In this document: positions 8,435 to 27,558 of the stretch, piece after piece
Numbering within the stretch: the stretch's first letter is position 1
Layout of the letters: the number at the start of each line of letters is the position of its first letter
NCBI RefSeq assembly: GCF_008692195.1
Contig: NZ_RXOM01000031.1
Location: forward strand, 1 to 35,458
From: Salegentibacter sp. R32
GTDB lineage: Bacteria; Bacteroidota; Bacteroidia; Flavobacteriales; Flavobacteriaceae
DNA length: 35,458 bases
Reading direction: 5' to 3'
Translations under genes and position numbers: made by a program
Notes under the pieces: model-generated
The model's database searches: none
Seen by the model: the letters and a program-made list of their open reading frames with translations, nothing else
What the model was told of the DNA's origin: nothing

Positions 8435-8436
8435 TT

Positions 8437-8500
8437 CACGGAAACTGAGGGAAATCTTTATAAAAGATTTTGTACCGAAGTTCTGTGTAACTTAAATATC
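8437..8500 (-). repeat. remnant of the dispersed 3' repeat arm
   Basis: The stretch ACGGAAACTGAGGG then AAATCTTTATAAAAGATTTTGTA is the reverse complement of the end of the repeat family found at 23899-24140 and 27161-27421. It is shortened and diverged, with no partner arm nearby. Confidence 0.5.
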
Positions 8501-8636
8501 AAACTCAGCTAACTAATTAAAAATTACATAACCAAAGAAAAGAGGAGTTGTAAGGTTAGGATTCTTTCTAGGTTTTAAAATATTCTATTTTACATAATAT
8601 AGATTATAGTTCTTTCTGATGAATTACTTTTATTTT

Positions 8637-12700: not shown

Positions 12701-13379
12701 TATTTCTCTTCTTGATTATTTTTTCTGCAAACTCATTGAAGTTACTTAACTCGTGTTGATACATCTCAACAAACCTTTCAATACTTTCTCTAACGGTAAA
12801 TTGTATGTCTCCTCTTCCAATACCCTTTTTTCTTTCACACCATCCCAGTTTTTCAATACTTTTAATAGCATTATCTACTGCTTTCTTTGCATCTCTCCAT
12901 TGTGTATCCGAGTATCCACCACCTTTTAGTTCTTTGAAAAAAAATCTTTTATACTGTTCACTATTTTCCCCATTTAGTATCTCTCTTTTAATGTCCTCCC
13001 ATTTGAATTCCTTCTCAAAACTGAAGTATTCAGAATAATACATGTTTAGAATTAACAACGTTACTATGGTTTGCTGCTCAGTTAAAAAATGATGTAGTTC
13101 CTGAGCAGCTAGTCTCCCTTTGTTCTCTTCAGGAAAATCTAAATAGAAATATTGAACGTCATGTGCAATTTTTCTTTTAAGTTTTAATTGATATAAACGA
13201 TCATAGTAGAACGTGAATTCATTAGCGTATTCATCGAGTACATCAAATAACTTGTACTCATCTTGTTGAATATGCCTACCCTTCAAAAGATTGATATTGA
13301 TTGTTGCAAAATTTTGCTCCATCTTCTCACTCTCTAAAAAATCAAATGAATCTATTTTCTTTTCTGTAATATCTTCCAT
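12687..13379 (-). CDS. jetB: JetB-like MukE/KITE subunit of a Wadjet system
   Basis: The protein has 230 residues and is soluble and charged, with no signal peptide. Predicted helices and a winged-helix-like C-terminal half (YSDTQWRDAKKAVDNAIKSI, LGWCERKKGIGRGDIQFTVRESIERFVEMY) fit the MukE/KITE (DUF4194-like) subunit that dimerises on the kleisin and contacts DNA. The identification rests mainly on operon position between the kleisin-like and SMC-like genes and on size, since this subunit is poorly conserved. It overlaps jetA by 28 bp and jetC by 14 bp, consistent with one translated mRNA. Confidence 0.75.
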   Translation of the reverse strand: MEDITEKKIDSFDFLESEKMEQNFATININLLKGRHIQQDEYKLFDVLDEYANEFTFYYDRLYQLKLKRKIAHDVQYFYLDFPEENKGRLAAQELHHFLTEQQTIVTLLILNMYYSEYFSFEKEFKWEDIKREILNGENSEQYKRFFFKELKGGGYSDTQWRDAKKAVDNAIKSIEKLGWCERKKGIGRGDIQFTVRESIERFVEMYQHELSNFNEFAEKIIKKRNNEGD

Positions 13380-14707
13380 GATTGAATATCGTCTTCAGTT
13401 AGTCCCAATTTTTTTTCTATTATAACTTCATCACCTATATTGCTTTGGCTATCGATAATTAAGTTGTAGTTGACCCTTAATGGAATAAGTGTATTATTTT
13501 CTTCCAAATAAATTTTCTGAAATTCAGATGATAGATTTAGTTGTTTCTCAGATTCCAGACGTTGTTTAAGGTTGTCAACCCACACTGAAATTCTTTCCTG
13601 ACTATTGACATCCTTTAAAAACTCTTTCTCTTGAGTATCAAAATATTCAGCATCTTTTTCTAAAGGAACAATTGCATTTGGTTGCTCCATTTCAAAGTCA
13701 TATCGCTTAAATGCACGAAAATAGACCTCCTGTGAGGGAATTGCTTTTAATGGAAAAGACTTGAACCGAACACCAGTGTCCGTATGTTTCATATCTTCCA
13801 AAGCAAGGCGAAGTATTTTCTTCAGATTAACCTTCAGCAATGCCTTTTTTTCAAAGGTTTCACCTAGTTCATTTAACTTCTTACTGGCGTAATGAATTTG
13901 ATTGCTAATATTGTCTAAGCGTAAATCTATTTGGTCAAAGAAAGCCTTTACATTATTGGCAATTTCCTTTACCGTATCCCAGTCTTGTCTTGAACTTTCA
14001 AACTCACGCTTATTAACAGTTCTTTGTGAAGCTGAATAAGAGTCGTACTTTTTATAAAGTTCATTTTCAAAGTCATTTAGTTGTTTTAATACTTTGTTTT
14101 TGAAATTGATGACTTCACGAATTTCTCTCGACCTATCTACAAACTTTTTAAACACTTTAGAGAATTCCTCTACTAATTTTAAAGCATCCAGATTCTCCAC
14201 CAATAGAATTTCGTTTAATTCTTTTGTGGCTTCCTTTAAGTCATCATATAGACTTTCAATATGATCAGAGACTACTCTTTTTGAAATGAGACTGAAGCTA
14301 AGTTCGAACCAATTATTCAATTGCTCGGCCGAAGCAAGAGTATCTTGATCAAGCGCAAAGTATTTTTCAAAGTTTTGTTTGAGTGGAAGATTTGAATAAG
14401 GACTACTAATTTTATCTGATATGACTCCCACAAAGTTTCTTGCATATTGAGTTAAACTATAAGAATTACTTCTAGTAGGGTGTTCAATTAAGAAAAAATT
14501 TAATAGGTACTGAACTGCTATTTCAATGTTGATGGTTGTTTCTGACTCTACTTCCCTAGAGCAGTATTCAATATCTTCAAACCTAAAATACTCTTCCAAT
14601 TCACCTTCGTTGATTTTCCTGTCTAGTCTTATTATAATTGAAGCGTACTCCTTCTTCGGGATTAGGAGATGGTATCGTGATAATATATTTTCTATGCTAT
14701 AAGACAA
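13352..14707 (-). CDS. jetA: JetA-like MukF/kleisin subunit of a Wadjet system
   Basis: The protein has 451 residues and is the first gene of the operon. The N-terminal ~130 residues look like a winged-helix unit (YFRFEDIEYC, IAVQYLLNFFLIEHPTRSNSYSLTQYARNFVGV). A long helical bundle or coiled-coil middle (about 140-300) follows, with a C-terminal part that could bind the ATPase head. This is the layout of MukF/MksF/JetA kleisins, which bridge the two SMC heads. The start is TTG: an in-frame TAA lies 4-6 bp upstream (14711-14713) and the next Met is far inside, so no ATG alternative exists. The 24-bp palindrome at 14742-14765 lies 35 bp upstream. Confidence 0.75.
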   Translation of the reverse strand: MSYSIENILSRYHLLIPKKEYASIIIRLDRKINEGELEEYFRFEDIEYCSREVESETTINIEIAVQYLLNFFLIEHPTRSNSYSLTQYARNFVGVISDKISSPYSNLPLKQNFEKYFALDQDTLASAEQLNNWFELSFSLISKRVVSDHIESLYDDLKEATKELNEILLVENLDALKLVEEFSKVFKKFVDRSREIREVINFKNKVLKQLNDFENELYKKYDSYSASQRTVNKREFESSRQDWDTVKEIANNVKAFFDQIDLRLDNISNQIHYASKKLNELGETFEKKALLKVNLKKILRLALEDMKHTDTGVRFKSFPLKAIPSQEVYFRAFKRYDFEMEQPNAIVPLEKDAEYFDTQEKEFLKDVNSQERISVWVDNLKQRLESEKQLNLSSEFQKIYLEENNTLIPLRVNYNLIIDSQSNIGDEVIIEKKLGLTEDDIQSWKILQKRK

Positions 14708-14741
14708 TTTTTAATTTATAAAACGAAATAATTAAATTAAC

Positions 14742-14765
14742 TTTACAGCAATTAATTGCTGTAAA
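14742..14765. promoter_or_regulatory. 24-bp perfect palindrome upstream of jetA, candidate operator
   Basis: The half-site is TTTACAGCAATT followed directly by its exact reverse complement. It lies 35-58 bp upstream of the jetA start, where an operator would overlap or flank the promoter. It lacks a T-tract, so it is not a terminator. No regulator gene sits beside it. The rest of the 429-bp gap to 15136 is AT-rich and shows nothing else I can support. Confidence 0.5.
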
Positions 14766-15103
14766 TAACTTACTTTTTATTTTCTACAGATTACACCTAA
14801 ATATTTGACCTATTTTCTAGTTTTTCTCTTCAATTGTTTCAATTTGTTTTCAAATTCGACTTATTTTTCCTATATAAGATGTAGCTGTACTATGCACGTA
14901 ATCTAGAATGTTAGAAAAATTAAATATAGTAAAAATTTACAAACATATACTTACGTAAACCCGTAATTTGCTAAAAATAAGAAGCAATAATTATTCCCAC
15001 TCCTCTCCCCTTTTAACAAAAACCTTATTTCAGTACCGCTGTAAAAAACCATTAGAAAAAGAAAATTAAAATTATTTTATCAGTTCATCTTAGGCTTATT
15101 CGT

Positions 15104-15111
15104 TAACTTTG
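15104..15111 (+). promoter_or_regulatory. candidate -7 box, TAACTTTG
   Basis: This exact match to the Bacteroidota TAnnTTTG box ends 25 bp before the ATG of the interrupted lipoprotein gene. The -33 element is not clear. Confidence 0.45.
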
Positions 15112-15136
15112 GTAGAAAACTTAAAATTTCAACCCT

Positions 15137-15811
15137 ATGGCGATGCGTATTTTTCAACGACTTTCTTTTTTCAGCCTCATTTTATTGTTTTTTATCATCA
15201 CTTCTTGTTCCGGTACCAAAGTAGTGAGCAACTGGAGAAAACCCGATTCTGAGCAACTTAAATTGCATAAAGTGTTGGTGTTGGCAATGACCCAAAAAAC
15301 GGATATAAGAAAACGCGTGGAAGATAAACTTACCCAAACTTTAGAAAAAAACGGGATTTCAGCTGGCGCTAGTTTAGCCTTTTTTGGGGAAGAAATGGAT
15401 AGCTTACCCAAAACCTTAGAAGACTGGCTTCCGCATATTCAGCGTTTAGAGCAAGAAAATTATGATGCCGTATTGGTTACCAAAGTGGTGGGCCAATAGG
15501 GAAAAGATGCTAAAAGTGGTATCGTACGCTATTACAATGAGTTTTTCGGGAGCTTTAAGGAAGATATCATGAAAAATAAAGATTTATATTCTGAGGAGGA
15601 AGGCTTTAAAGATTACTATATCCACCGGGTGGCCTCTAATTTATATTGTATTTGTGAACGAAATGAGGAGGAAGATTTAATATGGAAATTAAACGTGGAT
15701 ATTAAACAAGCTTTCGATTCTGATTATTTGATACAGGAAGGTGTACGTCTTTTCTCTAAACAGTTTATGAAAGAGTTAGAGGAGGAAGATTTGTTTGTAA
15801 CGGGGAAATAG
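15137..15811 (+). pseudogene. lipoprotein gene interrupted by an in-frame TAG
   Basis: Two open pieces, 15137-15499 and 15569-15811, lie in the same frame. The 23 codons after the stop at 15497-15499 are also open (GKDAKSGIVRYYNEFFGSF). Read through, the product is a 224-residue lipoprotein. A signal peptide and lipobox (FFIITSC) precede TKVVSNWRKPD, KVLVLAMTQKTDIRKRVEDKL and YDAVLVTKVVGQ. After the stop come EEGFKDYYIHRVASNLYC and DLIWKLNVDIKQAF. This resembles a Bacteroidota lipoprotein group of unknown role with a DUF4136-like flavour. The second piece has no good start of its own. A single substitution could have created the TAG. The promoter box upstream looks intact, which suggests recent inactivation or a sequencing error. 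Confidence 0.75.
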
Positions 15812-15844
15812 TAGTATTTAGTTGGCAGTGTTCAGTTAACAGTT

Positions 15845-15901
15845 GACAGTATTCAGTTGGCTGTATTTTTGATTTCAACTTCAACTTCATTTTCAATTTC
15901 A
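15845..15901 (+). repeat. short dispersed repeat, copy 1 of a local pair
   Basis: GACAGTATTCAGTT, then TGTATTTTTGATTTCAACTTC and ACTTCATTTTCAATTTCA, recur with few changes at 16334-16391. The unit is pyrimidine-rich and non-coding. The gap 15812-16421 holds only this pair and the two other repeats listed, and no ORF I accept. Confidence 0.6.
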
Positions 15902-16051
15902 AAAATGTCACCCTAAGTCTATCGAAGGGTTAATTTCAAAGCTATCTCCTCACTCAGCAACTCACCACTATAAGGTGGCTTTACTAATTAAAATTATATT
16001 TTTTCTTCTTTCGGGGGTTTCCCTTCTTTTCCATCGACGAAAAGAAGCAAA

Positions 16052-16071
16052 CCTGCCTGCCGGCAGGCAGG
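16052..16071. repeat. 20-bp perfect GC-rich palindrome
   Basis: CCTGCCTGCC followed by GGCAGGCAGG. Partial versions (CCGGCAGG, CCTGCCTGCATGC) occur at 113 and 22936 within other intergenic repeats, so it belongs to a dispersed family. It has no T-tract on either side and is not next to a gene end. Confidence 0.6.
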
Positions 16072-16333
16072 AGTCTAGGCAAGATTTTTATATCCTTGAA
16101 TGATGACAGAAATTTCTAGGCTTGCGGATGGCAAACGCTCCGAAGTGCCTTCCTCTCCCTTGGGTCGTCGGAGGCAGGCCTCCTCTGCCCTACGCTTTAA
16201 AATTTCTTATCATTACTACGGATATAAAAATAAGCCACTTCATTAATAGGAGTTCAAGTATAGTTTTGAGTTTAGATAAAAAGATTTCTCGACTCCGCTC
16301 GAAATGACAGGTAGGGAATCTTAGAAAGCAGTG

Positions 16334-16391
16334 GACAGTATTCAGTTTACAGTATTTTTCGATTTCAACTTCGACTTCATTTTCAATTTCA
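16334..16391 (+). repeat. short dispersed repeat, copy 2 of a local pair
   Basis: This is a near-copy of 15845-15901 in the same orientation, about 490 bp downstream. It ends about 30 bp before the end of the kinase pseudogene. Confidence 0.6.
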
Positions 16392-16421
16392 TCTTCAATT
16401 TTGTTTACAAAAAAGGCTAAG

Positions 16422-17463
16422 TTAATTACTTATAGGAATGGTGATGGTTGCTTTTACGGTTCCTTCAGAAGCTTCTTCAATTAAAGTGAATTTTGCTTTC
16501 TCTTTGTAGTGTAATTGAAGCCGTTGTTTTAAATTATTTAACCCTAAATTGCCGTCAATCCGTTCTTTAAAAAATAGACAACCGGGATTGGTAACCTGTA
16601 TCAAAATCCCGCCTGATTCTTTAGATATAGCAACTACAATTTTTCCACCTCTTATTGAATGATGTATTCCGTATTTTACGGCATTCTCCACCAAAGTTTG
16701 AATGGATAAAGTCAGGATTTTATAGTCGAGTAATTTTGTATCAATTTTTGTTTCTAGTTGTAACCTTTGCTTAAAACGAAGTTGCTCTATTTCTATATAA
16801 TCTTCTACCAAACACAATTCTTCTTCTAAGGTAATACATTCTTCCCTCGTGTAAATTGAGGAATGTAATAAACCGTATAATAAATCAATCGACCGTTTTG
16901 CTTGGTAAGGTTTCTCTGAAATTAAGGTTTTAACACTATCTAGTGTATTAAATAAAAATTGAGGTTTCATCTTTTTTGATAAATGATTGAACTCCCCTTC
17001 TTTAGCGAGGAGAGATAATTCTGCTTGATGTTTTATGGTTTTTATTTGCTCTTTGTGATAGCTGTATAAATGATAAGCAAGTACCCAAATAGACATTAAT
17101 CGCAAGCCTTTTATAAAAGGAAAGTTCCAAAAAAACAAAGCATTTATATAATCAGATTCTTCTTGCTGAATAATTGCCCAATACATATGCCATCTTATAT
17201 TACTAAGCATCATAAATAAGATGGCTAACACTATAATTAAGATAGCTAATAATAGTAAATCATAACCTTTGATAAGTTTATAGCCCACTTTTAAAAACAT
17301 CTAAAAGAAAGTTGATGCTAGTATGAAATAATGAACAATCTTGTCTAAAATAAAGAATATAAGCCCAATCTAGAGAAGCTATTCCCCATCCCAATAATTG
17401 AAATTTCCAATATAGAGAGATTCTATTTCTAATTTTTATGCCCCCCTTTTGTTTCATATACAT
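16422..17463 (-). pseudogene. LytS-type sensor histidine kinase, frameshifted and lacking the phospho-acceptor His
   Basis: Two overlapping frames together encode one kinase of about 345 residues. 17463-17278 gives the N-terminus (ISLYWKFQLLGWGIASLDW, the usual start of Bacteroidota LytS kinases). 17300-16422 gives the remaining membrane helices, a His_kinase domain and an HATPase domain (LVENAVKYG, GNLGLNNLKQRLQLHY). The frames join in a T5A4 run at about 17288-17296, so one base gained or lost explains the break. The catalytic box reads MKPQFLFNTLD where the family has nPHFLFNtLN: the acceptor His is Gln (codon CAA). The C-terminal ORF could still make a 292-residue membrane protein with an ATPase domain but could not autophosphorylate in the normal way. 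No LytTR regulator gene is adjacent in the window. Confidence 0.75.
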
Positions 17464-17472
17464 TTACAAAAT

Positions 17473-17490
17473 AACTAACTATAGTTAGTT
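17473..17490. promoter_or_regulatory. 18-bp perfect palindrome upstream of the kinase remnant
   Basis: AACTAACTA followed by TAGTTAGTT, 10 bp upstream of the first kinase frame. It may be an operator or a hairpin over the ribosome site. The rest of 17491-17784 is AT-rich with no gene and no clear terminator for the upstream operon. Confidence 0.35.
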
Positions 17491-17784
17491 TTGGAGAGGG
17501 CAAATACATAAACGTCCTTATAGGCTCATAAACGTTGCACAAATGCGTTTTATATGTTTAATCGTGTTTTTAATTTAAGAGAAAAAATCTAATAAAGTAA
17601 TGATGTAAAGATCGCTTTTGTAGAGTAGATTAAATAATGTAGAACACTAGAAAAATTAACACATAAGAAGTTGTTATACACGTCACATATTATAGAAATA
17701 AGTGTATTTGATTTTATTTTTTAGAAAAACAATTTTAAAGTCATCAACTTATATTACCTTAAAATACTTATAAAAATTTGTATG

Positions 17785-19569
17785 TTAAGTACTTGAAATT
17801 GCTAAGGACAGATACTTGTTTTTTTCTGTGTACATCAATCTATTCTTTACCATCCTATTTAAGAAGGTAAGTACATCGTTATTTTCTATTTTGTATTTAA
17901 ATTTATTGTGAAATTTAGTTTTGATGTTTTTAATGGTTTGCTCTGTATCACACAACAAATATATGTAAGATTCCATTTCATTTAAATTATATTCCAACCT
18001 TCCACTTGCATACCTTAAGTCAATAATTTTAATAAAATTTTCTCCTTTTAAATAAACTAATTTTCTGTAAACATTTTTTGTATTGGTATTCCAATCTCTT
18101 ATAAGAGACCTCACCTTATCCTCATAGCTAGATGACCTTTCGGTTTTCCTTGTATTTTCTAATTCATAGTCATATTCTTCTGCAATATTTTTAATATTTT
18201 CTTTGGAGATAAAAGAGAATACATAATTGTACCAATTTAATGGATTCTTAATGAGGATCCCATGTTTTTGTGGTTCTTCAAAATAGGGACTTAATTTTTG
18301 TAATCTAAATCTATTAAAAGAAGGAGGCCATAAATGAAATAAAGAGGGTATTAAATCAAATAACTCTTGCATATCATTTTCTCCTTCCCCCGGAAGATTG
18401 TATAATATATTCCATTCAGCTCTAACATCATATTCTGATGCCCATTTTAAGGCTTTGATATTTTGAATAGCAGTTGCACCTTTGCTTATTTGATTTAAAG
18501 TATGACTATTTAAACTTTCAACACCAAACTGGACTACTGCTCCCATTTTTTTCAAAATTGGAAATTTGTCTTTGCTAAGATTTACTTTAGATTGTAGGTA
18601 TATGGTATAGTTTAAATTTAACTTTATTAAATTCTGAAAAAGTGTTGTAAAATAGGATGTAGATATTATCCAATCGAAAAATTGAAATTTTAAAACCCTA
18701 TATCTATTAGATAATTCAATAATACCTTGTAAACTATTATTAATATCTTTTTCCCTAAACGTAGCGTTTGTTTTTGTTAATGCACAAAAAGAACATTTAG
18801 ATTTTTCTGCCCACCAACACCCTCTTGAGGTTTCAAATGGGATCCAGTTTTCATAGTGAATTAAATCCCTAAATGCGTTTTCTTTTAATCGTTGATAATA
18901 TTCATCATAATTAGGTATATTTAAAAAATCCAATCTTCTTACATTTAAATCTACAGGAGCTATCTTGTTTCCACGTAACACATCAAGAATATTTTTTTCA
19001 GGATCACATGCGAGAACATTTGTAATAAAATTAAATTCTTGAGTTAACATTTTTTCTATATCGCCTTCTAAGACCTCTCCTAGAAAAAATATTGAAACTT
19101 TAGGGAATTTTGAGTGAATTAACTTAGCTAGTGCAAGAGATGGAGTAAGCTCTCTATACATTGGGCAAAAAATAACGGTAGTTGAAGCTTCATCAATAAT
19201 TTCTAGTTCTTCCAGCACATTATCTAAAAAAATTGAAGCAATATCTCTCAACTTCAAAGCAGTTTCAATAATATCTTTTCCAATTCCGTTTTTTGTTAGA
19301 TAACTTATATATTCATTGTCATAATGCTCTTTTACTGTTTTTAAAGGAGGTATTGAAAAAATAAAGTCCCCTAACCCATAATTACCTATCATGGCTTGAT
19401 AATCCCTTAAATTTAAATCAAATTCACTAATGAAGTTTACAAACTCTAAATGGAAAGAATAAGATGACACATCATAAAACTTATCTACAATGCTATGGAT
19501 ATTTCCCATTAACAAGCTAGGCTGGACAGGTTGCCCCCAGGGCATAGTAATTAATTTAACCTTAGACAT
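17785..19569 (-). CDS. RiPP maturation radical SAM protein, B12-binding N-terminus, PqqD-like C-terminus
   Basis: The protein has 594 residues. Its layout matches the bacteriocin-maturation radical SAM type 1 group: an N-terminal cobalamin-binding-like Rossmann part (about 1-200, MPWGQPVQPSLL, TVIFCPMYRELTPSLALAKL, FFLGEVLEGD), then a radical SAM core. The cluster cysteines are 251, 259 and 262 in RGCWWAEKSKCSFCAL, the CX7CX2C spacing typical of this group. Later landmarks are VVQFGVESLNSHTLNQISKGATAIQNI and EWNILYNLPGE. The last ~80 residues (NEMESYIYLLCDTEQTI, VLTFLNRMVKNRLMY) resemble a PqqD-type peptide-recognition domain. It should bind and modify a ribosomal peptide, most likely the eight-repeat protein encoded upstream. 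The chemistry cannot be read from the sequence. It overlaps the glycosyltransferase gene by 8 bp. Confidence 0.85.
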   Translation of the reverse strand: MSKVKLITMPWGQPVQPSLLMGNIHSIVDKFYDVSSYSFHLEFVNFISEFDLNLRDYQAMIGNYGLGDFIFSIPPLKTVKEHYDNEYISYLTKNGIGKDIIETALKLRDIASIFLDNVLEELEIIDEASTTVIFCPMYRELTPSLALAKLIHSKFPKVSIFFLGEVLEGDIEKMLTQEFNFITNVLACDPEKNILDVLRGNKIAPVDLNVRRLDFLNIPNYDEYYQRLKENAFRDLIHYENWIPFETSRGCWWAEKSKCSFCALTKTNATFREKDINNSLQGIIELSNRYRVLKFQFFDWIISTSYFTTLFQNLIKLNLNYTIYLQSKVNLSKDKFPILKKMGAVVQFGVESLNSHTLNQISKGATAIQNIKALKWASEYDVRAEWNILYNLPGEGENDMQELFDLIPSLFHLWPPSFNRFRLQKLSPYFEEPQKHGILIKNPLNWYNYVFSFISKENIKNIAEEYDYELENTRKTERSSSYEDKVRSLIRDWNTNTKNVYRKLVYLKGENFIKIIDLRYASGRLEYNLNEMESYIYLLCDTEQTIKNIKTKFHNKFKYKIENNDVLTFLNRMVKNRLMYTEKNKYLSLAISST

Positions 19570-21148
19570 CCCTAAAATAAATTAGATTGAGATTAGAACA
19601 CCTTTGTAATAAAATATTTAAGGTATTTTCTTCAATCTCTATATGATTGGACTTGACTATTTCTTGTAGTAATGATTGGTAGGTGATACTATTACTGGAT
19701 TTTATAATTGTGAGAATAGGTATAATATCTTTTTCATTATCGTCTATTAAAGGTTCATGTTTACCACAATACTCTATTAGCGTACTATTGTCTATAAGTT
19801 TGTTAGACATAATTGGTAAAATGTGATCTAAATTTACTAATGGAAGTGGCGGGTTTAGTGTACTTTCATCATTACTTTTGGCTTCGTTAGCGAGTTTAAT
19901 AAAGAAGTCTACTCTCTCTTGAGACTTTTTTTGGATACAATAGTTGTTTTTTGCAAGCTGACTGGAATTTTTTCTCATTTGGGACAACAAATCTGGATTT
20001 TTTAATAATTCTAAAACCCTACTGATGAATTGATTGTTGTTTATGGATATAAATTTTTCAATTTCGGTATTTAAATACATTGAATCTCTGGAAAAGATTT
20101 GTCTTGATACTTTAGAAGTAACGTTAGCTGTCCAACAATCTATTAAAAAACCATTTTCGTAATCTTTTATAATATCTTTCATTCCAGACCAATTAGAAGC
20201 AATTACTGGTAATGAATGTGATAAAGCTTCTAAAACAACATTAGAGGTTGTTTCTTCCAATCCCCTTGTTGTATGAATAAAAACATCACAACCGGACATC
20301 AAGTAATTATTTGCGTTTTCCCATAAATCAAAAGGGTTTGCAATTACCCTTATATTCTCATACACCCCTACATTCTTTGCTAGTTTTAATAATTGTTTGG
20401 GGTATTCCCGATAATCGGGTGTGGTTACTATTGCACCAGCTATAACCAAAATGGCTAAGGGTTCTTCTTTTGATATTTTAGCCCAAGAATAGATTAAAGC
20501 TTCATAATTAACCTTAGAGTTTGGAGCAATACGGCTATAGCAAAGAAACAGCTTAGAACTATTACTTAAATTAAAAGTTTTTCTAAATTCATCTCTATAT
20601 GCTAAATTTAAAGAATTTTCTTTTATATTAACTCCATTAGAAATTACAGTACTTTTAATCTGAAATTTTTGAGAAAACCTTTCGGACCAATTATTCAAGG
20701 TCATTTCAAATATCTCTTTAGTTCTATTAGACTTAAATATGATCCCATCATTTGTAGAGATATTCCCTTGTATAAATGATAAAAAAATAGAACTCCATTG
20801 TTCTGGGTAATGAGTAGTACCGATCTCAGCAATTATCGGTATTTTCATATTACGCCTTAGGCCAAAACTATCATACTGAAAATGACCTCCAGAAAGATAA
20901 ATAACATGATATGCTAAGTCTTGAATTCCATAAGCCTCAAAACATAATTTTCTTACAACGCAATCATCTACATTTTGGGTATGTTCATTATAAAAAATTT
21001 CATCATATAAATCTATTCTTGCAAATTTTTTTGATTGAATTAGTTGGTTATATATATTAAAAGAAGATTTTAAAGAACCATAAGGAAGATGTGCTAAGGG
21101 AGGTTCTGGTACACCCCTCACAATTGCTAAATTAAACTTCTCTTGCAC
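19562..21148 (-). CDS. GT4-type glycosyltransferase with a C-terminal extension, RiPP cluster
   Basis: The protein has 528 residues. About 1-420 is a GT-B glycosyltransferase: an N-terminal acceptor half (IAEIGTTHYPEQW, STVISNGVNI), then a donor half (FLCYSRIAPNSKVNYEALI, LVIAGA) and the nucleotide-sugar motif GLEETTSNVVLEALSHSLPV with the EX7E pair Glu299/Glu307. GT4 enzymes are retaining transferases using UDP- or GDP-sugars. Residues about 425-528 are not part of the GT fold. The segment YQSLLQEIV...NTLNILLQRCSNLNLIYF looks winged-helix-like and could be a peptide-recognition domain matching the one on the radical SAM partner. It has no signal peptide or membrane segment, so it acts in the cytoplasm. 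Its place 3 bp after the precursor gene suggests it glycosylates that protein; this is inference. Confidence 0.82.
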   Translation of the reverse strand: MQEKFNLAIVRGVPEPPLAHLPYGSLKSSFNIYNQLIQSKKFARIDLYDEIFYNEHTQNVDDCVVRKLCFEAYGIQDLAYHVIYLSGGHFQYDSFGLRRNMKIPIIAEIGTTHYPEQWSSIFLSFIQGNISTNDGIIFKSNRTKEIFEMTLNNWSERFSQKFQIKSTVISNGVNIKENSLNLAYRDEFRKTFNLSNSSKLFLCYSRIAPNSKVNYEALIYSWAKISKEEPLAILVIAGAIVTTPDYREYPKQLLKLAKNVGVYENIRVIANPFDLWENANNYLMSGCDVFIHTTRGLEETTSNVVLEALSHSLPVIASNWSGMKDIIKDYENGFLIDCWTANVTSKVSRQIFSRDSMYLNTEIEKFISINNNQFISRVLELLKNPDLLSQMRKNSSQLAKNNYCIQKKSQERVDFFIKLANEAKSNDESTLNPPLPLVNLDHILPIMSNKLIDNSTLIEYCGKHEPLIDDNEKDIIPILTIIKSSNSITYQSLLQEIVKSNHIEIEENTLNILLQRCSNLNLIYFRDV

Positions 21149-21151
21149 TTT

Positions 21152-21658
21152 TTATTTGTGGGATAATTTAACTTGACCATCATAGCCTATAGTCTTATTA
21201 GAAATTTCACTCTTACTAGAAGCAATTTTCACTTGACCGTCATAGCCAATTGTCTTGTTGGAAATATCACTTTTTATACTAGCAATTTTTACTTGGCCAT
21301 CATACCCTATAGTCCTATTGGAAATTTCATCTTTTACGGAAGCAATTTTTACCTGTCCATCGTAACCAATGGTTTTATTAGTTATTTTGGTCTCTACTAA
21401 TGCCATTTTCACTTGCCCATCATAACCAATAGTTTTATTTAATATTCCGTCACTTGAAATGGCTACTTTAACTTGCCCATCATAACCGATGGTCTTATTA
21501 AATACCTCCTTATTTAATAAGGCTATCTTTACTTGTCCATCATAGCCAATAGTTGCATTGGAGATTTCATTACCTCCTATGGCAATTTTTACCTGCCCGT
21601 CATAACCGATGGTTTTATTAAACACATCGCTATTGCTTGAAGAGATTTTGTTTTTCAT
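21152..21658 (-). CDS. candidate multicore RiPP precursor, eight 20-residue repeats
   Basis: The 168-residue protein is almost wholly repeats. Eight units start at Asn14, 34, 54, 74, 94, 114, 134 and 154, each exactly 20 residues. The core N-x-TIGYDGQVK is invariant in all eight (x is Lys, Ala or Arg), followed by a hydrophobic residue and Ala or Ser. A variable spacer of about seven residues ends in Asp/Glu/Lys/Gly-Ile/Val-Ser/Phe/Leu/Thr. There is no Cys, signal peptide, double-Gly leader or membrane segment. The first 13 residues resemble a spacer more than a separate leader. It is the first gene of an operon with a glycosyltransferase (3-bp gap) and a RiPP-type radical SAM enzyme, which is why I call it a precursor. 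A repetitive beta-solenoid structural protein is the alternative. Confidence 0.75.
   Translation of the reverse strand: MKNKISSSNSDVFNKTIGYDGQVKIAIGGNEISNATIGYDGQVKIALLNKEVFNKTIGYDGQVKVAISSDGILNKTIGYDGQVKMALVETKITNKTIGYDGQVKIASVKDEISNRTIGYDGQVKIASIKSDISNKTIGYDGQVKIASSKSEISNKTIGYDGQVKLSHK
21171..21619 (-). repeat. 60-bp coding repeats, eight units
   Basis: The DNA shows eight units at exact 60-bp spacing, for example ACTTGACCAT at 21171, ACTTGACCGT at 21231 and ACTTGGCCAT at 21291 on the plus strand. They are the codons of the precursor repeats. Third positions differ between units while the encoded core does not. Confidence 0.9.
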
Positions 21659-21877
21659 TTTTAGTTAGTTTTTAAGTTATCGTTATAAATTTATAAAATA
21701 AATTATGTTAAAACAATAAAAAAATATTTTTTTATATGTTATAGTAATAACCCTTTATTTAACCAATAAATATCTAACCTGTTTTCCCTCAATATTTTAT
21801 AAAAAACATTTTTTAAAGAAAAATGTTAAAAGTAAATAACTAAAATCGCTCCTTCTTACATCACTATAAAAACAAAA

Positions 21878-21908
21878 ATTGGCGAATAGTAAACTACTAT
21901 TCGCCAAT
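21878..21908 (-). terminator. intrinsic terminator for the secreted protein gene
   Basis: ATTGGCGAATAGT (21878-21890) and ACTATTCGCCAAT (21896-21908) form a 13-bp perfect stem with a 5-nt loop. On the minus strand it is followed by TTTTTGTTTTT. It lies about 30 bp after the stop of the gene at 21939 and separates it from the RiPP operon, whose own promoter must therefore lie in 21659-21877. That stretch is very AT-rich and shows no clear -7 box. Confidence 0.85.
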
Positions 21909-21938
21909 GTAAAAAGTATAATTTTTTATATTTTTAAT

Positions 21939-22688
21939 TTACCTAGCCTTATGAGTTCTGGCAATTACATAGCGAATATCATACACCTCTGCTGCGGAAC
22001 TTGCTTCAATTTTTACTGCACCACCATTGGTTTCCCAAGTATCTAAGGTATAAGCACTAATGGTCTGCAGGTAATAATGTTCTTGGCCCTGCCCTTTGGA
22101 AAGTACAAAAGTGTTGGGGTAAATCTCTCCTACCACACCTCCTATATCAATAGATAATGATAATCTCGTTGAAGAAGAAGTGGTGGGCCGGGCTTTAAAT
22201 TCGATGACTATATTAATGGCATCACCGTTTCTTCCGGTGATAGTATTAGTAGTTTCATCGTAAAAAGTAGTTACATCTACCGGTTTTTGACTGTCCCTTA
22301 CAGTAGAAGCATCGTTAGGTAGAGTGACTTGAACACCTCCTGAAAGTGATAAAGGACTTGCAGAAGTATAAGTACCATCTACATAATCTCCCCATCCGGT
22401 GTAATCACTGGCGCTACTTTCAGTAATCAGTGCTATCCAAGTATCGGTTTGGTAATAATAGAAAGCATTCAAGTCGGTATCAAACACTAGTAACCCATTA
22501 GATGGGTTAGAAATAGCCTCTCTTTGTAGGGTTGTCATGCGTGGCATAAGCACACCGGCTGAAGTTGAATTAATATCTAAAATAGAAGAGGCATCAGGAT
22601 CGGTGGTACCTATTCCTACTTGCGCATAAGAACTTATAGATACACAAAAACAAAATATAACTAGAGAGATGGAGAATTTATTCATCAT
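21939..22688 (-). CDS. secreted protein with Bacteroidota 'GIGTT' N-terminal repeat region, unknown function
   Basis: The protein has 249 residues. The signal peptide is about 1-22 (ends SYAQ). Directly after it comes VGIGTTDPDASSILDINST, GVLMPRMTTLQREAI and GLLVFDTDLNAFYYY, a module found at the start of many secreted Bacteroidota proteins and tail-fibre-like proteins. The C-terminal ~150 residues (LPNDASTVRDSQKPVDVTTFYDETTNTITG, INIVIEFKARPTTSSSTRLSLSIDIGG, AAEVYDIRYVIARTHKAR) look like a beta-sandwich or jelly roll that could bind sugar or protein, but I do not recognise the family. It has no T9SS tail. Two Met codons start the frame (22688 and 22685); either is possible. Upstream are three 21-bp-spaced direct repeats, and downstream a strong terminator, so it is transcribed alone. 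Confidence 0.75.
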   Translation of the reverse strand: MMNKFSISLVIFCFCVSISSYAQVGIGTTDPDASSILDINSTSAGVLMPRMTTLQREAISNPSNGLLVFDTDLNAFYYYQTDTWIALITESSASDYTGWGDYVDGTYTSASPLSLSGGVQVTLPNDASTVRDSQKPVDVTTFYDETTNTITGRNGDAINIVIEFKARPTTSSSTRLSLSIDIGGVVGEIYPNTFVLSKGQGQEHYYLQTISAYTLDTWETNGGAVKIEASSAAEVYDIRYVIARTHKAR

Positions 22689-22741
22689 AGTAGTATTTTT
22701 TTGTTACTAAGTATATACGCTAAATCTTAGCTAAAAGTTTT

Positions 22742-22796
22742 TTAATCGTTAAAATAAACCTTTTAATCGTTAAAAAAGCGCTTTATTACGTTAAAG
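22742..22796. promoter_or_regulatory. three direct repeats at 21-bp spacing, candidate LytTR-type binding sites
   Basis: TTTAATCGTTAAAA, TTTTAATCGTTAAA and TTTATTACGTTAAAG place the shared CGTT at 22747, 22768 and 22789, exactly two helical turns apart. A degenerate fourth (AAATCTTAGC) sits in phase at 22726. LytTR regulators (AlgR/AgrA/ComE) bind 9-bp direct repeats with 12-13 bp between them; these match 7-8 of 9 positions. They lie 55-107 bp upstream of the gene at 22688. Confidence 0.5.
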
Positions 22797-22933
22797 ATTA
22801 ACTTTCAGCTCTTTACTATATACTAAAGAGAAACTTAATTACCGGTCATATTACTTTATCTTAATGTGTGTTTTTTGGTTATACCAGAATTTAATTATCC
22901 GTAATTTGTAATAATGGATATTTTCATCATTAT

Positions 22934-23040
22934 GACCTGCCTGCATGCAAGACAGGCTTGATCCGGAATCTCATACTACATTGAAAAAAATATTTAGGAT
23001 GAGCCCCTGAATCAACACTTCGACTCCGCTCAGTATGACA
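22934..23040 (-). repeat. dispersed intergenic repeat (copy 2)
   Basis: This is the reverse-orientation relative of 107-195, sharing GGCTTGATCCGGAATCTCATAC and AGGATGAGCCCCTGAATCAA. It ends with CTTCGACTCCGCTCAGTATG, a short motif also found near 16287 and, in the other orientation and diverged, near 15905 and 33917. The 22689-23189 gap otherwise holds only the regulatory repeats and the csp terminator. Confidence 0.6.
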
Positions 23041-23138
23041 AAAGGGTGACGGCGCCTCATTTTCATAACGGATATTCAATACTAGAAAGTATTATTGAAA
23101 ATTTTAAAGGAAATCTTTCAAGTTACTTCCATAAAAAA

Positions 23139-23164
23139 AGCCTATCTAAAATTTAGATAGGCTT
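23139..23164 (-). terminator. intrinsic terminator for the cold shock gene
   Basis: AAGCCTATCTAAA followed directly by its reverse complement makes a 26-bp palindrome. On the minus strand it is followed by a run of T. It starts 26 bp after the stop of the cold shock gene. Confidence 0.85.
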
Positions 23165-23189
23165 CAATTCGTTTATAAAAGAATATATA

Positions 23190-23381
23190 CTAAATAACTT
23201 CTACGTTAACCGCATTTAATCCTTTTTTTCCTTGTTCTAGGTCAAATTTTACTTCATCACCTTCACGAATTTCATCTACCAATCCACTAATGTGTACAAA
23301 ATGGTCTTTGTCTTCACCTTCTTCGGTGATAAATCCAAATCCTTTACTTTCGTTAAAGAATTTTACTATTCCTTTATTCAT
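23190..23381 (-). CDS. cold shock domain protein (CspA family)
   Basis: The 63-residue protein is a single cold shock domain: a five-strand OB fold that binds single-stranded RNA and DNA and melts RNA structure. RNP1 is KGFGFI and RNP2 is HFVHISG, both intact. GIVKFFNESKG at the start and GKKGLNAVNVEVI at the end are standard for the family. Several paralogues are normal in Bacteroidota, so I give no symbol. It is monocistronic, with a strong terminator 26 bp downstream. About 170 bp of AT-rich DNA separates it from the divergent gene at 23551, leaving room for a leader; I cannot show a thermosensor. Confidence 0.95.
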   Translation of the reverse strand: MNKGIVKFFNESKGFGFITEEGEDKDHFVHISGLVDEIREGDEVKFDLEQGKKGLNAVNVEVI

Positions 23382-23550
23382 TATAAAATATTAATTATTA
23401 AGCTACAAATGTGCGACTAATTTTTGGATTAACTGCACGAAAAGGATTTTATTTTGTGAAATTTTTAAATCTATCGTTCTTAAAAATTCCTCAACTTTTT
23501 ATTAATTTTACACCAACCTCATAATACCCCACAATACCTACTACTAACTT

Positions 23551-23880
23551 ATGAAATTATATACCCATTGCTCCGGGTGCGGAGATGAAATCACGATTAA
23601 GTCTTCGGCTACCGACCGTAGAAAACTAAAACTAGAACATGGTGACCAAATACAAGTGAATTGTCACCATTGTGGCAAAAAAGAAAAGCAACACCTCAAT
23701 AAAATATACGCAGAAATAAACAGCTTGCATTTGTTTATCGCTTGTGCGGCATCAGTTATTCTATCTATAGTAATTTGGTTGGCATTTGGCGTTATTGGTA
23801 CGCTCTTAATCCTTATTCCGCTTTCATTATGGTTATATCAATTAAATGCCACGCGAAATTTTAATAAGTACTTTATTTAA
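23551..23880 (+). CDS. small membrane protein with N-terminal zinc ribbon
   Basis: The protein has 109 residues. Four cysteines in two CXXC knuckles (Cys7/Cys10 and Cys38/Cys41) form a zinc-ribbon-like head at about 5-45. Two adjacent hydrophobic helices follow (about 56-74 and 77-95), with a short charged tail (ATRNFNKYF). It is probably an inner-membrane protein with the metal knob in the cytoplasm. I do not recognise a function. It is divergent from the cold shock gene, and a long dispersed repeat follows it. Confidence 0.7.
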   Translation: MKLYTHCSGCGDEITIKSSATDRRKLKLEHGDQIQVNCHHCGKKEKQHLNKIYAEINSLHLFIACAASVILSIVIWLAFGVIGTLLILIPLSLWLYQLNATRNFNKYFI

Positions 23881-23898
23881 AAAGAAACTTTCCTACCT

Positions 23899-24140
23899 TC
23901 AGGTCGAGTGAATTTTATCAAGAATCTGGTATAAAAATCATCAATCTGTTCTCGATACATTTTTCTTTACTTTCGTTCAGAAAAACACTCGAACGGAGTT
24001 GTAGTAACCCAAATCTTTTATGAATTTCGTCAATCATTTTGTGCATTGAGTGAATTTTCATAGAAAATTTGTATTAAAATGCAATTCAAACAAAACTTCG
24101 ATACAAAATCTTTTATCAAAGATTTCACTCAGTTTCCGAG
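23899..24140 (+). repeat. long dispersed palindromic repeat, copy 1
   Basis: It opens with AGGTCGAGTGAATTTTATC. The middle has TTCTCGATACATTTTTCTTT and TTCGTTCAGAAAAACACTCG, and it closes with ATCTTTTATCAAAGATTTCA and CTCAGTTTCCG. Its last 136 bp (24003-24138) match 27283-27418 with two differences. The unit fills most of the 23881-24243 gap and encodes nothing I can support. Confidence 0.85.
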
Positions 24141-24213
24141 GGCTTCATGCATAGACCTTACTTAAAGTATATTTCCCTTCCGTCCTTCAAAGTGAAATAT
24201 TATAAAAAATACT

Positions 24214-24221
24214 TATTTTCG
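24214..24221 (+). promoter_or_regulatory. candidate -7 box, TATTTTCG
   Basis: A common variant of the Bacteroidota TAnnTTTG box, ending 22 bp before the ATG of the gene at 24244. It lies after the dispersed repeat, so the repeat is outside the core promoter. Confidence 0.35.
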
Positions 24222-24243
24222 TCCCAACTACCAAGTAAAAGAT

Positions 24244-24600
24244 ATGGGCTTTTTTAGGGAAAAAGAGTTAGAAGTAGTACAACGCAAAATAGCCGTGAAC
24301 CTTCAAGAACGTCATTATTTTATTAGGAACAAATGGAAGGTTTTGATGGTAGGGCTATTTGTTTCCCTTATTTCCCCTTTTTACCGTACCGGCTATAATG
24401 GTTCTGGAAATTCTGGATTAGAACTTAGCGGACTCCCCTACTATCAATTGGTCATTTACATTTTTACAGGCTACTGTAGCGTGGCTATCATTGCGCATTT
24501 TATATTTGCTTGGCAAGATAAACGTGCCTATAAGCGTTTAAAAAAGCGAGAACAAGAACTCTTACGCTGGAAAGAAGTCAGCAACGATTTACCTTACTAA
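24244..24600 (+). CDS. small membrane protein of unknown function
   Basis: The protein has 118 residues. A basic, charged N-terminus (about 1-30) is followed by a hydrophobic helix (about 32-46, VLMVGLFVSLISPFY), a Gly/Ser-rich loop (TGYNGSGNSGLELSG), a second helix (about 65-88, LVIYIFTGYCSVAIIAHFIFAW) and a charged coiled-coil-like tail (DKRAYKRLKKREQELLRW). Both ends are probably cytoplasmic. I recognise no family. The beta-barrel gene starts 17 bp downstream in the same direction, so the two are likely co-transcribed. Confidence 0.65.
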   Translation: MGFFREKELEVVQRKIAVNLQERHYFIRNKWKVLMVGLFVSLISPFYRTGYNGSGNSGLELSGLPYYQLVIYIFTGYCSVAIIAHFIFAWQDKRAYKRLKKREQELLRWKEVSNDLPY

Positions 24601-24617
24601 TTCAACTATACTTATTT

Positions 24618-25190
24618 ATGAAAAAAAGTTACTTTCTTCTTTTAATAGTATTCAGTTCAATGAGCTTATTCGCTCAAGAACCGTGGAGTTATGGCGTAAA
24701 AGCAGGAGCTAACCTTAGTGGTTTTCATACCAAGAATTCTACGAATACCGACCTGCAAGGTTTTCAATTAGCGGGTTTGGTGAACTATCGGGCAGCTGAT
24801 GTATTTGCTGTACAGACCGAACTGCAATACATTCAAAAAGGAGGAGCTTTTACTGAAATTGATCCTGGAAATTTTGAAAACTATTATACCGAAAGTAAAC
24901 TATCTTACCTAGAAGTGCCCTTACTCGCCCAACTTATTTTCTTAAAAAAGCTACGTTTAGAAATAGGCCCACAAATTAGTTTTTTGGTGAGTGATAAAAC
25001 CACCTTGAATGGAGAAGAAATTGAAGCTAATCCTAACAGTACCGATATAGGGCTTGCTGGCGGATTAAGTTATTACTTCAATAAAGGTATAGTTATTCAA
25101 ACCCGGTATGTATATGGATTACAAGAAGTTTTTGAAGCCTATGGTTATAAAAACTCAGCTATCATGCTTTCTTTAGGCTATATGTTTTAA
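24618..25190 (+). CDS. outer membrane beta-barrel protein (PorT/OmpA-barrel-like)
   Basis: The protein has 190 residues. The signal peptide (about 1-19, ends LFAQ) is followed by an eight-strand type barrel: YGVKAGANLSGF, GFQLAGLVNYRAADVFAVQTELQYIQKGGAF, LSYLEVPLLAQLIFL, RLEIGPQISFLVS, DIGLAGGLSYYF and IVIQTRYVYGL, ending in LSLGYMF with a terminal Phe. This fits the porT-type 'outer membrane protein beta-barrel' family common in Bacteroidota, whose members are mostly of unknown role. It follows the small membrane protein gene by 17 bp. Confidence 0.85.
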   Translation: MKKSYFLLLIVFSSMSLFAQEPWSYGVKAGANLSGFHTKNSTNTDLQGFQLAGLVNYRAADVFAVQTELQYIQKGGAFTEIDPGNFENYYTESKLSYLEVPLLAQLIFLKKLRLEIGPQISFLVSDKTTLNGEEIEANPNSTDIGLAGGLSYYFNKGIVIQTRYVYGLQEVFEAYGYKNSAIMLSLGYMF

Positions 25191-25263
25191 GACTTTATTT
25201 TTTCATACCTACCAACAGCTAAAGCTGGAGGCGCCTATCTTCAACGAAATTCAAATAAAACAG

Positions 25264-25271
25264 TATATTTG
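25264..25271 (+). promoter_or_regulatory. candidate -7 box, TATATTTG
   Basis: An exact TAnnTTTG match 28 bp before the ATG of the DUF2157 gene. No strong -33 box is seen. Confidence 0.4.
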
Positions 25272-25299
25272 AGTATACCATTCACCATTATTCTATCGA

Positions 25300-26592
25300 A
25301 TGAAAATTTACAATGAATTAGAAGAACTAGTGGAAAAAGCTGTTCTTACTGAAGAAACAGCCCATAACATTAAGCACTATTACCATCAAAAAGACCAAAA
25401 TTCACCCAACCAACTCTATATTATCTTCGGTATTTTGGGAGCCATCTTGGTAGGCTTAGGTATAATTTTAATCATTGCCCATAACTGGGACAACTTCCCT
25501 ACCGGCCTTAAAACCGTCTTTGCTTTTATTCCTTTGGCACTAGGACAGCTACTTGCTCTATATGTAATTCTAAAAAAATATAGTCATATGGCTTGGCGGG
25601 AAGGAGTAGCTACTTTTTTGTTTTTTGCGATAAGCGTTAGTATTTCCCTCGTTAGTCAAATCTATCATATCTCGGGAGCTATAGAATCGTTTATGCTTAC
25701 ATGGATGCTTTTGGCACTTCCTCTTATTTATCTATTAGATTCAAGTGTAGCCTGTTTACTGTACCTTAGTGGGATTACCTTTTATGCCTGTTTACAAGGA
25801 TATTTTAATTATCCTACCAGCCCTCCCTATTTATACGGACTTTTATTGATAGCTGCTCTTCCATTTTATATTTATCAAGTAAAAAAGAAGAACCGAAATA
25901 TTCATGCGGTAGCCTTACAAAATTGGACCATTGCTTTATCATTTCTTATCGTGTTGGGCGCTTTTTCCCATCAACACCAGCCAGTAATTTACATCTCCTA
26001 TATCTGCATGTTTGCTTTTTTCTTAGGCCTCTACCCTATTAGAACATTTAAAAACGCTACTAGCCTTCAATTGTCCTATGCATTTGTGGGTTATGGCGGA
26101 ACTTTGGTAATTTTATTTATATTAAGTTTTAGGGAGGGTATTTGGGATTCTTTTACTCCTGAACTATTGGGCAATCGTTTTTTTACTTCTCCTGAATTTC
26201 TCTTAAGCTTAGCTTTTAGCCTGGCAGCCAGTTATTTTGTTTTTCAGGAATATATAAAAGCAGGAAGTATCTCGAAAATTTCTCCTTACCGTATCAGTTA
26301 TCTCCTGTGCATAGCTCTATTCTTTACAGGAATTTACCTCTCGTTAGGCGCCATTATCATTAATATGTATTTACTCATGTTGGGCCTTTATACCATTCGG
26401 CTAGGCAATAAAAAACAACACTTGGGCATCCTTAACTTTGGGCTTAGTATTATTACCGTACTTATTATTTGTAGGTTTTTTGACACCAATTTAAGTTTTA
26501 TAACCCGTGGAATATTGTTTCTACTCGTTGGAGCCGGTTTTTTTATCGCAAATTATTTAACCCTTAAACGAAAAAAGCAAAATGCTCAGTAA
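25300..26592 (+). CDS. DUF2157 domain polytopic membrane protein
   Basis: The protein has 430 residues. The N-terminal cytoplasmic part (about 1-40) has a helical, acidic character (LEELVEKAVLTEETAHNIKHYY). It is followed by LYIIFGILGAILVGLGIILIIAHNWDNFP, the defining start of DUF2157, with the conserved HNWDNFP turn. About eleven to twelve further hydrophobic helices run to the C-terminus. The family is widespread and of unknown function. It overlaps the next gene by 11 bp, and that gene encodes its usual partner (GDYXXLXY type), so the two probably act together in the inner membrane. A -7-like box stands 28 bp upstream. Confidence 0.88.
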   Translation: MKIYNELEELVEKAVLTEETAHNIKHYYHQKDQNSPNQLYIIFGILGAILVGLGIILIIAHNWDNFPTGLKTVFAFIPLALGQLLALYVILKKYSHMAWREGVATFLFFAISVSISLVSQIYHISGAIESFMLTWMLLALPLIYLLDSSVACLLYLSGITFYACLQGYFNYPTSPPYLYGLLLIAALPFYIYQVKKKNRNIHAVALQNWTIALSFLIVLGAFSHQHQPVIYISYICMFAFFLGLYPIRTFKNATSLQLSYAFVGYGGTLVILFILSFREGIWDSFTPELLGNRFFTSPEFLLSLAFSLAASYFVFQEYIKAGSISKISPYRISYLLCIALFFTGIYLSLGAIIINMYLLMLGLYTIRLGNKKQHLGILNFGLSIITVLIICRFFDTNLSFITRGILFLLVGAGFFIANYLTLKRKKQNAQ

Positions 26593-27145
26593 AAAAATAC
26601 TCTTCCCTTTATTTGCAGTCATGGTCATTGCCCAGTGGTATATACCCGGACATATGATTTGGGAAAAAGAAGAAATCCTGTTATCTGGTAAAGCCTATAA
26701 ATTTAAAATAAGGCCTTTTGATCCTTATCACCCACTAAAAGGAAAATATATTCGCTTGGTTTATGAAGAAGACTCTTTTACCGTTCCTACTGTAGAACCC
26801 TGGATGACCGGAAAAGAAATTTATGTAGTACTCACAACAGACGAAGAAGGCTATGCCCAAATAAAAGATATTCAACCCACGGCTCCCAATACCGCTAAAA
26901 ATAACTATTTTAAAGCCCGTTCCAATAATTACACAAGAGAGAACATCATTCAGCTCCATTATTCATTCGATGAATTTTATATGAATGAATTTAAAGCTCC
27001 CAAAGCCGAAAATCTTCAACGGGAAATTGCCCAAGATTCTACCAAAAATGTCTATGCTGTTGTGCATATTAAAGATGGTGAAGTGGTGTTAAAAGATGTG
27101 GAAGTTGACGGCATACCGCTTCGTGAACTTTTAAACACGAACTAA
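26582..27145 (+). CDS. GDYXXLXY-type membrane-anchored protein, partner of DUF2157
   Basis: The protein has 187 residues. A single N-terminal anchor or uncleaved signal (about 4-22, KILFPLFAVMVIAQWYIP) precedes a periplasmic beta-rich domain. The family signature is seen as FDPYHPLKGKYIRLVY (about 44-59), where the usual GDY is GKY. The later segment VVHIKDGEVVLKDVEVDGIPL is also typical. Proteins of this type nearly always sit directly after a DUF2157 gene. Here the genes overlap by 11 bp. The function is unknown; a membrane complex is inferred from the constant pairing. Confidence 0.82.
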   Translation: MLSKKILFPLFAVMVIAQWYIPGHMIWEKEEILLSGKAYKFKIRPFDPYHPLKGKYIRLVYEEDSFTVPTVEPWMTGKEIYVVLTTDEEGYAQIKDIQPTAPNTAKNNYFKARSNNYTRENIIQLHYSFDEFYMNEFKAPKAENLQREIAQDSTKNVYAVVHIKDGEVVLKDVEVDGIPLRELLNTN

Positions 27146-27160
27146 GCTTTTTACTTCCAT

Positions 27161-27421
27161 CCCGTCAGGTCAAGTGGGATTTCATAGAAAGTCTGTTTAC
27201 GGGCGAAAGTGTGATCCTGACCTTATGGTTCTCGATACATTTTTCTTTCCTTTCGTTCAGAAAAACACTCGAACGGACTTAAAGTAACCCAAATCTTTTA
27301 TGAATTTCGTCAATTATTTTGGGCATTGAGTGAATTTTCATAGAAAATTTGTATTAAAATGCAATTCAAACAAAACTTCGATACAAAATCTTTTATCAAA
27401 GATTTCACTCAGTTTCCGTCA
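27161..27421 (+). repeat. long dispersed palindromic repeat, copy 2
   Basis: Same layout as copy 1: CCCGTCAGGTCAAGTGGGAT at the start, GTTCTCGATACATTTTTCTT and TTTCGTTCAGAAAAACACTCG in the middle, CTCAGTTTCCGTC at the end. The 5' part has diverged from copy 1 while the 3' 136 bp is nearly identical. It covers most of the 27146-27558 gap; the rest shows no gene. Confidence 0.85.
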
Positions 27422-27558
27422 CTACTTCTTCAAATTTAACACAGTCCCTATTTCCTAATACCTACTCCCCACTCCCTTTTATTCCTTGTTAAACAAACTT
27501 TAAACCCGCTTATTTCTTAAAAAAGGCAGGGAGAAAGCCTTAACTTTAAAGAAAAAAG

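Follow-up and report, generated by a model that had tools for sequence, protein, structure and literature searches.

What does a compact operon make when it joins a protein of eight tandem units to a glycosyltransferase and a radical SAM enzyme? This question is raised by a locus of Salegentibacter sp. R32, which we analyzed within the window, that is, the whole stretch of 35,458 nucleotides taken from contig NZ_RXOM01000031.1. The three genes lie in series on the minus strand, from 21658 down to 17785, in the order repeat protein, GT4 glycosyltransferase and radical SAM protein, and the locus is laid out as follows.

21878..21908, minus strand: terminator-like hairpin of 14 pairs with a T-rich tail (consensus match only)
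21659..21877, minus strand: intergenic stretch, the expected site of the operon promoter
21152..21658, minus strand: repeat protein gene; 168 aa, built of eight 20-residue units that share the core N-x-TIGYDGQVK and hold one N-X-T sequon each
19562..21148, minus strand: GT4-type glycosyltransferase gene; 528 aa, GTG start, PF00534, E-x7-E at residue 299
17785..19569, minus strand: radical SAM gene; 594 aa, TIGR03975, with CX7CX2C intact, a degenerate B12-binding signature and a C-terminus weakly similar to PqqD

The stop codon of the repeat gene is separated from the glycosyltransferase start by 3 bases, and the glycosyltransferase and radical SAM genes overlap by 8 bases. The hairpin, read from 21908 to 21878, stands between the operon and the upstream gene. 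Promoter-like sites around 21659-21877 were no more frequent than in shuffled sequence and none was assigned, and no Rfam family exceeded its gathering score in window positions 15000-24500. The arrangement looked for in a RiPP locus, a precursor gene beside a peptide-modifying enzyme, is present here as the repeat gene, the glycosyltransferase and a TIGR03975 member. Our main reading, to which we give a probability of about 0.6, is that the operon encodes a RiPP-type modification system with a leaderless substrate of eight cores, which would be modified by the enzymes encoded beside it.

The repeat protein proved to be as regular as an earlier note on this DNA had described it, with eight exact 20-residue units in 168 residues. 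The sequence TIGYDGQVK starts at residues 16, 36, 56, 76, 96, 116, 136 and 156, giving seven intervals of exactly 20. All ten fixed letters of the core (N, T, I, G, Y, D, G, Q, V and K) are found 8/8 at their own columns, so the core that the note called invariant is so in these letters; the x of N-x-T is the sole varying column (Lys in six units, Ala in one and Arg in one). The array was picked up by Tandem Repeats Finder, and a three-copy GYDG pattern gave 4 matches in the window versus 0 in 100 shuffles. When codons were compared over the 28 unit pairs, the core (columns 10-20) showed 155 synonymous versus 13 non-synonymous differences, all 13 of them at the x column, whereas the spacers, which follow the pattern hydrophobic-Ala-x5-[IV], showed 57 synonymous versus 166 non-synonymous differences. 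The pattern matches and the codon counts together argue that the array is not due to chance, and the difference between core and spacer indicates that the units have diverged in DNA while peptide-level selection has kept the core constant.

Each unit holds one N-X-S/T sequon, which makes exactly eight in the protein, and the free x between an invariant Asn and an invariant Thr may reflect a glycosylation sequon, which it fits; other reasons for this pattern are possible. It has no Trp, a pI of 9.3 and 0 Cys in 168 residues, which bears out the earlier conclusion that it is neither a sactipeptide nor a lanthipeptide, as both are defined by core cysteines. To our knowledge, the core also carries none of the motifs of splicease, triceptide or rotapeptide chemistries, and these three were set aside. 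The first core Asn is residue 14, and since only 13 residues precede it, the protein has no ordinary leader distinct from its core. Neither NCBIfam (best E 0.00021, 20.6 bits against 150) nor Pfam (best E 0.0046, 17.6 bits against 23.5) holds a model that the protein matches over its curated cut-off, in agreement with the note, which knew of no described family with this core; PADLOC gave two weak matches, the better at E 0.0011. The open-licence literature was covered by topic words, and the core itself may already be in print.

Could the repeats instead build a folded beta-repeat protein with a structural or binding role, while the two enzymes act elsewhere, for example on a surface glycan or another peptide? 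AlphaFold2 predicted an all-beta repeat (best model pLDDT 76, pTM 0.77), the D-G of the core would suit a tight turn, and tandem repeats are common among structural proteins. However, the other four models reached only 52.5 to 40.2, and no PDB match to the repeat protein was better than E 0.31. Moreover, random 20-residue units repeated ten times are described in PMC11795689 as giving AlphaFold2 beta-solenoids in 36/50 models. Because such folds are frequent for random repeats of this length, we set the model aside as evidence and discounted the beta-solenoid reading. The tight operon with a member of a RiPP-maturation family, and a sequence without any signal-peptide-like stretch (highest 19-residue hydropathy, 0.36), also speak against a structural protein, and we consider this explanation unlikely.

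We next turn to the two enzymes. The GT4 assignment made in the note is borne out by a PF00534 (Glycos_transf_1) match of 73 bits against a cut-off of 26.4, together with an intact E-x7-E at residue 299. The best NCBIfam match is TIGR04157 (glyco_rSAM_CFB), at 49.3 bits and thus below the cut-off of 400; the enzymes of this family presumably occur in radical SAM neighborhoods, as its name suggests. GtfA of the serine-rich repeat adhesins is reportedly a GT4 enzyme that acts on a polypeptide. A sequence search of solved structures gave no match for the glycosyltransferase, and neither this enzyme nor the radical SAM protein had a PADLOC match at E 0.01.

The glycosyltransferase carries a C-terminal extension of about 95 residues, which we considered as a candidate PqqD-like winged helix or RRE but do not claim as one. 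HMM scans gave no support, the hhalign score against the radical SAM C-termini (13.3) was exceeded by 3/60 shuffles, and the AlphaFold2 model of the region, with a pLDDT of 45, gave no support either.

The radical SAM protein matches TIGR03975 (rSAM_ocin_1, RiPP maturation radical SAM C-methyltransferases) over residues 4-591 with 353.3 bits against a curated cut-off of 281.85, which upholds the link that the note had drawn to RiPP maturation. Its iron-sulphur motif, CWWAEKSKCSFC, has the form CX7CX2C in an RGCWW context; the same spacing is found in 20 relatives, whose frames were chosen by that motif. All ten aligned members match TIGR03975. The note had described a B12-type radical SAM protein with CX7CX2C and an 8-bp overlap, and of this description the motif, the overlap and the family hold, but the B12-binding signature is missing. 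Unlike the 9 other aligned members, the protein has no PF02310 match at E<=1.

A comparison with the 20 relatives, namely 17 of 56 plasmid records and three genome places, which include near-duplicates (L003/L004 and several rhizobia), places this loss in the sequence. The protein breaks 47/115 conserved columns, whereas the relatives break 0 to 22 (leave-one-out), and within the N-terminal B12 part it breaks 17/31, against up to 9 in the relatives. Twelve positions on which all 20 relatives agree are changed, six of them within the N-terminal B12 part: Q140, G163, G172, D183, G188, E189, G263, N265, N300, M361, R425 and Y464 (letters are the relatives' residues, numbers those of the protein itself). 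As these relatives are few and in part redundant, their agreement overstates how independent they are. The alignment is gap-free over residues 132-200. Because three other places in the host genome exceed the Pfam B12-binding cut-off, a general lack of B12-binding proteins in the host does not account for the loss. From these comparisons we infer that cobalamin binding has been weakened or lost.

The missing PF02310 match and the 12 changed positions make cobalamin-dependent methylation by this protein uncertain. The system could nevertheless be as we propose with the radical SAM protein working as a cobalamin-dependent C-methyltransferase, forming for example one beta-methyltyrosine per core, and with the sugar added separately. 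This possibility draws on the TIGR03975 match at 353 bits, since the family is named for such methyltransferases, and on the B12-binding proteins of the host. It also has two precedents, as ApyD of the aminopyruvatides is an RRE-containing B12-radical SAM enzyme that makes beta-methyltyrosine (PMC10635010) and PoyC of the polytheonamides has the same CX7CX2C (PMC11285071). Both are RiPP radical SAM enzymes, like the one proposed here, ApyD being one that acts on Tyr, but they differ from it in their cobalamin dependence. The ApyD model NF050148 is matched by 8/10 aligned members (E<=0.001) and is not among the 10 families that our protein matches at this threshold, which, like the broken columns and changed positions, stands against a methyltransferase of this kind. 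We regard the methyltransferase as a real possibility that falls short of an even chance, and because the B12 signature is lost, a radical step other than C-methylation appears about as likely. The C-terminus of the protein resembles PqqD weakly (E 0.002 and 0.012, under the curated cut-offs), and its one match among solved structures searched by sequence was a weak one to a ferric uptake regulator (E 0.0079).

Under the main reading of a RiPP-type system, the repeat protein is most likely the substrate, and its sequence suggests that every unit would be modified by one or both enzymes. Spacer and core together would provide, unit by unit, the site that is recognized and acted on. The radical SAM enzyme would abstract hydrogen from one conserved core residue per unit, with Tyr as the first guess, perhaps engaging the substrate through its PqqD-like C-terminus in this step; the outcome could be C-methylation as in ApyD and PoyC or a B12-independent reaction. 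The GT4 enzyme would glycosylate N-x-T at its Asn or Thr. The product would then be a protein, or a group of peptides, carrying up to eight decorations, with cleavage and export presumably provided by host functions encoded outside the operon, as no protease or exporter gene lies within it.

How does the locus compare with known systems? It shares with TIGR03975 enzymes a full-length match over the cut-off, RGCWW with CX7CX2C, a weak PqqD-like C-terminus and a candidate precursor close by, but it differs in its lost B12-binding signature, its glycosyltransferase neighbor and its leaderless precursor with a core of its own. Eleven annotated stretches of plasmid DNA carrying a TIGR03975-like enzyme were compared: 7 list a precursor (pheganomycin-type, Os1348/NHLP, CefA or Nif11) and 5 a radical SAM epimerase. 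No glycosyltransferase was listed in any of the 11 gene tables, which are incomplete in this collection, and no relative of our glycosyltransferase was found in the DNA fetched around 20 other TIGR03975-like places (tblastn, E 0.01). The pairing of this glycosyltransferase with the radical SAM protein is therefore without a second example.

Large repetitive substrates beside a TIGR03975 enzyme do occur elsewhere. The CefA (Cys-every-fifth) cluster of Methylomagnum, with TIGR04463 and TIGR03975 enzymes, is one case; it differs in its Cys-rich C-terminal repeat and second radical SAM/SPASM enzyme, and no glycosyltransferase is listed for it. A second was seen in two phylum genomes (L062 6167-7054 and 9023-10582; L063 7622-8509 and 10478-12037), where a Pro-Arg-repeat protein of 295 aa, with 21 Pro-Arg pairs as counted in L062, is accompanied by a TIGR03975 enzyme and a subtilase. 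There, too, the repeat protein comes just before the radical SAM gene, but the repeat is another one, the N-terminal part is long and acidic, and a protease replaces the glycosyltransferase. The arrangement suggests a further RiPP system of the repeat-substrate kind, one that brings its own protease. In a further phylum genome (L064 4251-13505), a TIGR03975 enzyme is found together with an epimerase of PoyD type (TIGR04517, 424 bits against a cut-off of 325); a candidate precursor of 112 aa, which bears a GG-like motif, and genes that by eye resemble transporters are also present.

As in our locus, a glycosyltransferase goes with a radical SAM enzyme in Bacteroidales clusters of RiPP-like type (PMC10352776) and presumably around the TIGR04157 family. 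BGC3, a published cluster with both enzymes, differs in that it also contains LanC-like genes and a pseudo-rSAM, and its precursor has a GG motif (PMC10352776). Multi-core precursors are likewise in print (PMC8939145 and PMC11285071). The candidate new RiPP class proposed in the note is thereby weakened: it is drawn from one genome, the combination of radical SAM enzyme and glycosyltransferase has been reported in Bacteroidales RiPP clusters, and repeat substrates beside TIGR03975 enzymes already exist.

We then asked how widely the system is distributed. The repeat protein, the radical SAM protein and the glycosyltransferase were each found in 1/16 genus genomes, the one they come from. Relatives of the radical SAM protein (E 1e-15 to 1e-20) occurred in 1/395 order, 4/395 phylum and 1/395 class genomes, counts that include its own genome each time and come from partly overlapping draws; relatives of the glycosyltransferase (E 1e-20) were found in 1/390 phylum genomes, again its own. 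Plasmids held 56 records for the radical SAM protein, all with <60% identity, and one for the glycosyltransferase, covering 28% of the query at 27.6% identity. Viral contigs gave 21 loci for the radical SAM protein, at 21-28% identity, and none for the glycosyltransferase, and phage records gave none for the radical SAM protein (E 1e-10).

For the repeat protein itself, tblastn found nothing in plasmids or phages, and no frame with two or more TIGYDG was present in any fetched locus besides that of the window. A tandem GYDG x3 pattern matched 28 stretches in a genome collection described as covering 84,980 species and 27 in viral contigs, the latter mostly collagen-like by eye; since a match demands GGT as first codon, an unaltered GYDG and a unit length between 15 and about 24 residues, diverged or GC-rich relatives could escape it, and the genome of the window is possibly absent from the collections searched with it. 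The note had held that repeat proteins of this family occurring widely away from the enzymes would speak against its reading, and within the limits of these searches no such repeat was found elsewhere. The operon is thus an orphan in the searches made.

An orphan whose radical SAM protein has lost many family-conserved residues might also be a decaying operon or a chance grouping, with an inactive, degenerate relic of an enzyme and a repeat protein that arose as a by-product of slippage. We hold this to be very improbable, as all three reading frames are intact, as are the iron-sulphur motif and E-x7-E, and strong protein-level constraint on repeats with diverged codons is the opposite of recent slippage.

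Taken as a whole, the RiPP reading has on its side the TIGR03975 and GT4 matches over their cut-offs, the tight gene spacing, the selection on the core and the sequon in each unit and, by analogy, the precedents of CefA and the Pro-Arg-repeat protein for repetitive substrates beside TIGR03975 enzymes. Against it stand the orphan status, the lack of an ordinary leader and of an operon-encoded protease or exporter, a PqqD-like match under the cut-offs, a glycosyltransferase extension without RRE support and an enzyme pairing without a second example. A further-reaching proposal is that an enzyme of a cobalamin family has given up cobalamin to perform a non-methylating reaction on eight identical leaderless cores, with the GT4 enzyme as a cytosolic peptide glycosyltransferase acting on N-x-T. 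This would be a glycosylated, radical-modified multi-core RiPP class, which had no match in the collections searched or in the open papers searched by topic. We offer this proposal as a speculation, and a rather doubtful one. If the overall reading is right, the radical SAM enzyme could be compared directly with its cobalamin-dependent cousins and would show what chemistry follows the loss of a B12 site, and a peptide-acting GT4 enzyme would have a defined 20-residue peptide substrate. With three genes and a substrate of 18 kDa that lacks Cys, the system is easy to express and to follow by mass spectrometry.

Finally, we examined the genomic setting. The lowest GC of the window, 0.274 at 17001-19000, belongs to the operon; positions 32001-34000 are also low, at 0.291. 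Given this composition and the occurrence of the three genes in 1/16 genus genomes, the repeat operon is an accessory module, probably an acquired one. The nearest relative, G006, encodes flanking proteins that are 78 and 94% identical. Two 18-kb stretches of this genome, on different contigs, match parts of window positions 3236-8609 and 23130-27962, and share only a 65-base match with 8610-23129 (blastn, E 1e-5).

These 14.5 kb, from 8610 to 23129, form a variable region that holds Jet-like genes, a histidine kinase and the repeat operon. The kinase, of LytS type (PF06580; 16422-17300, minus strand), adjoins the operon and had no match in the 15 other genus genomes (E 1e-20). Further along, at 8637-14707 on the minus strand, four overlapping genes resemble a Wadjet/Jet-type SMC defence operon, with weak PADLOC matches to JetD (E 0.0024), JetC (1.2e-8) and JetB (0.00034) and none for the fourth gene (451 aa); the set is possibly of a divergent type. 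At 7300-7864, a 170-base unit is repeated in tandem about 3.3 times. Six short stretches of the window (7474-7521, 16337-16401, 23949-24000, 24093-24138, 27229-27280 and 27373-27430) all match within a single kilobase of the related genome (L082 8864-9816) and are probably one or more dispersed repeats.
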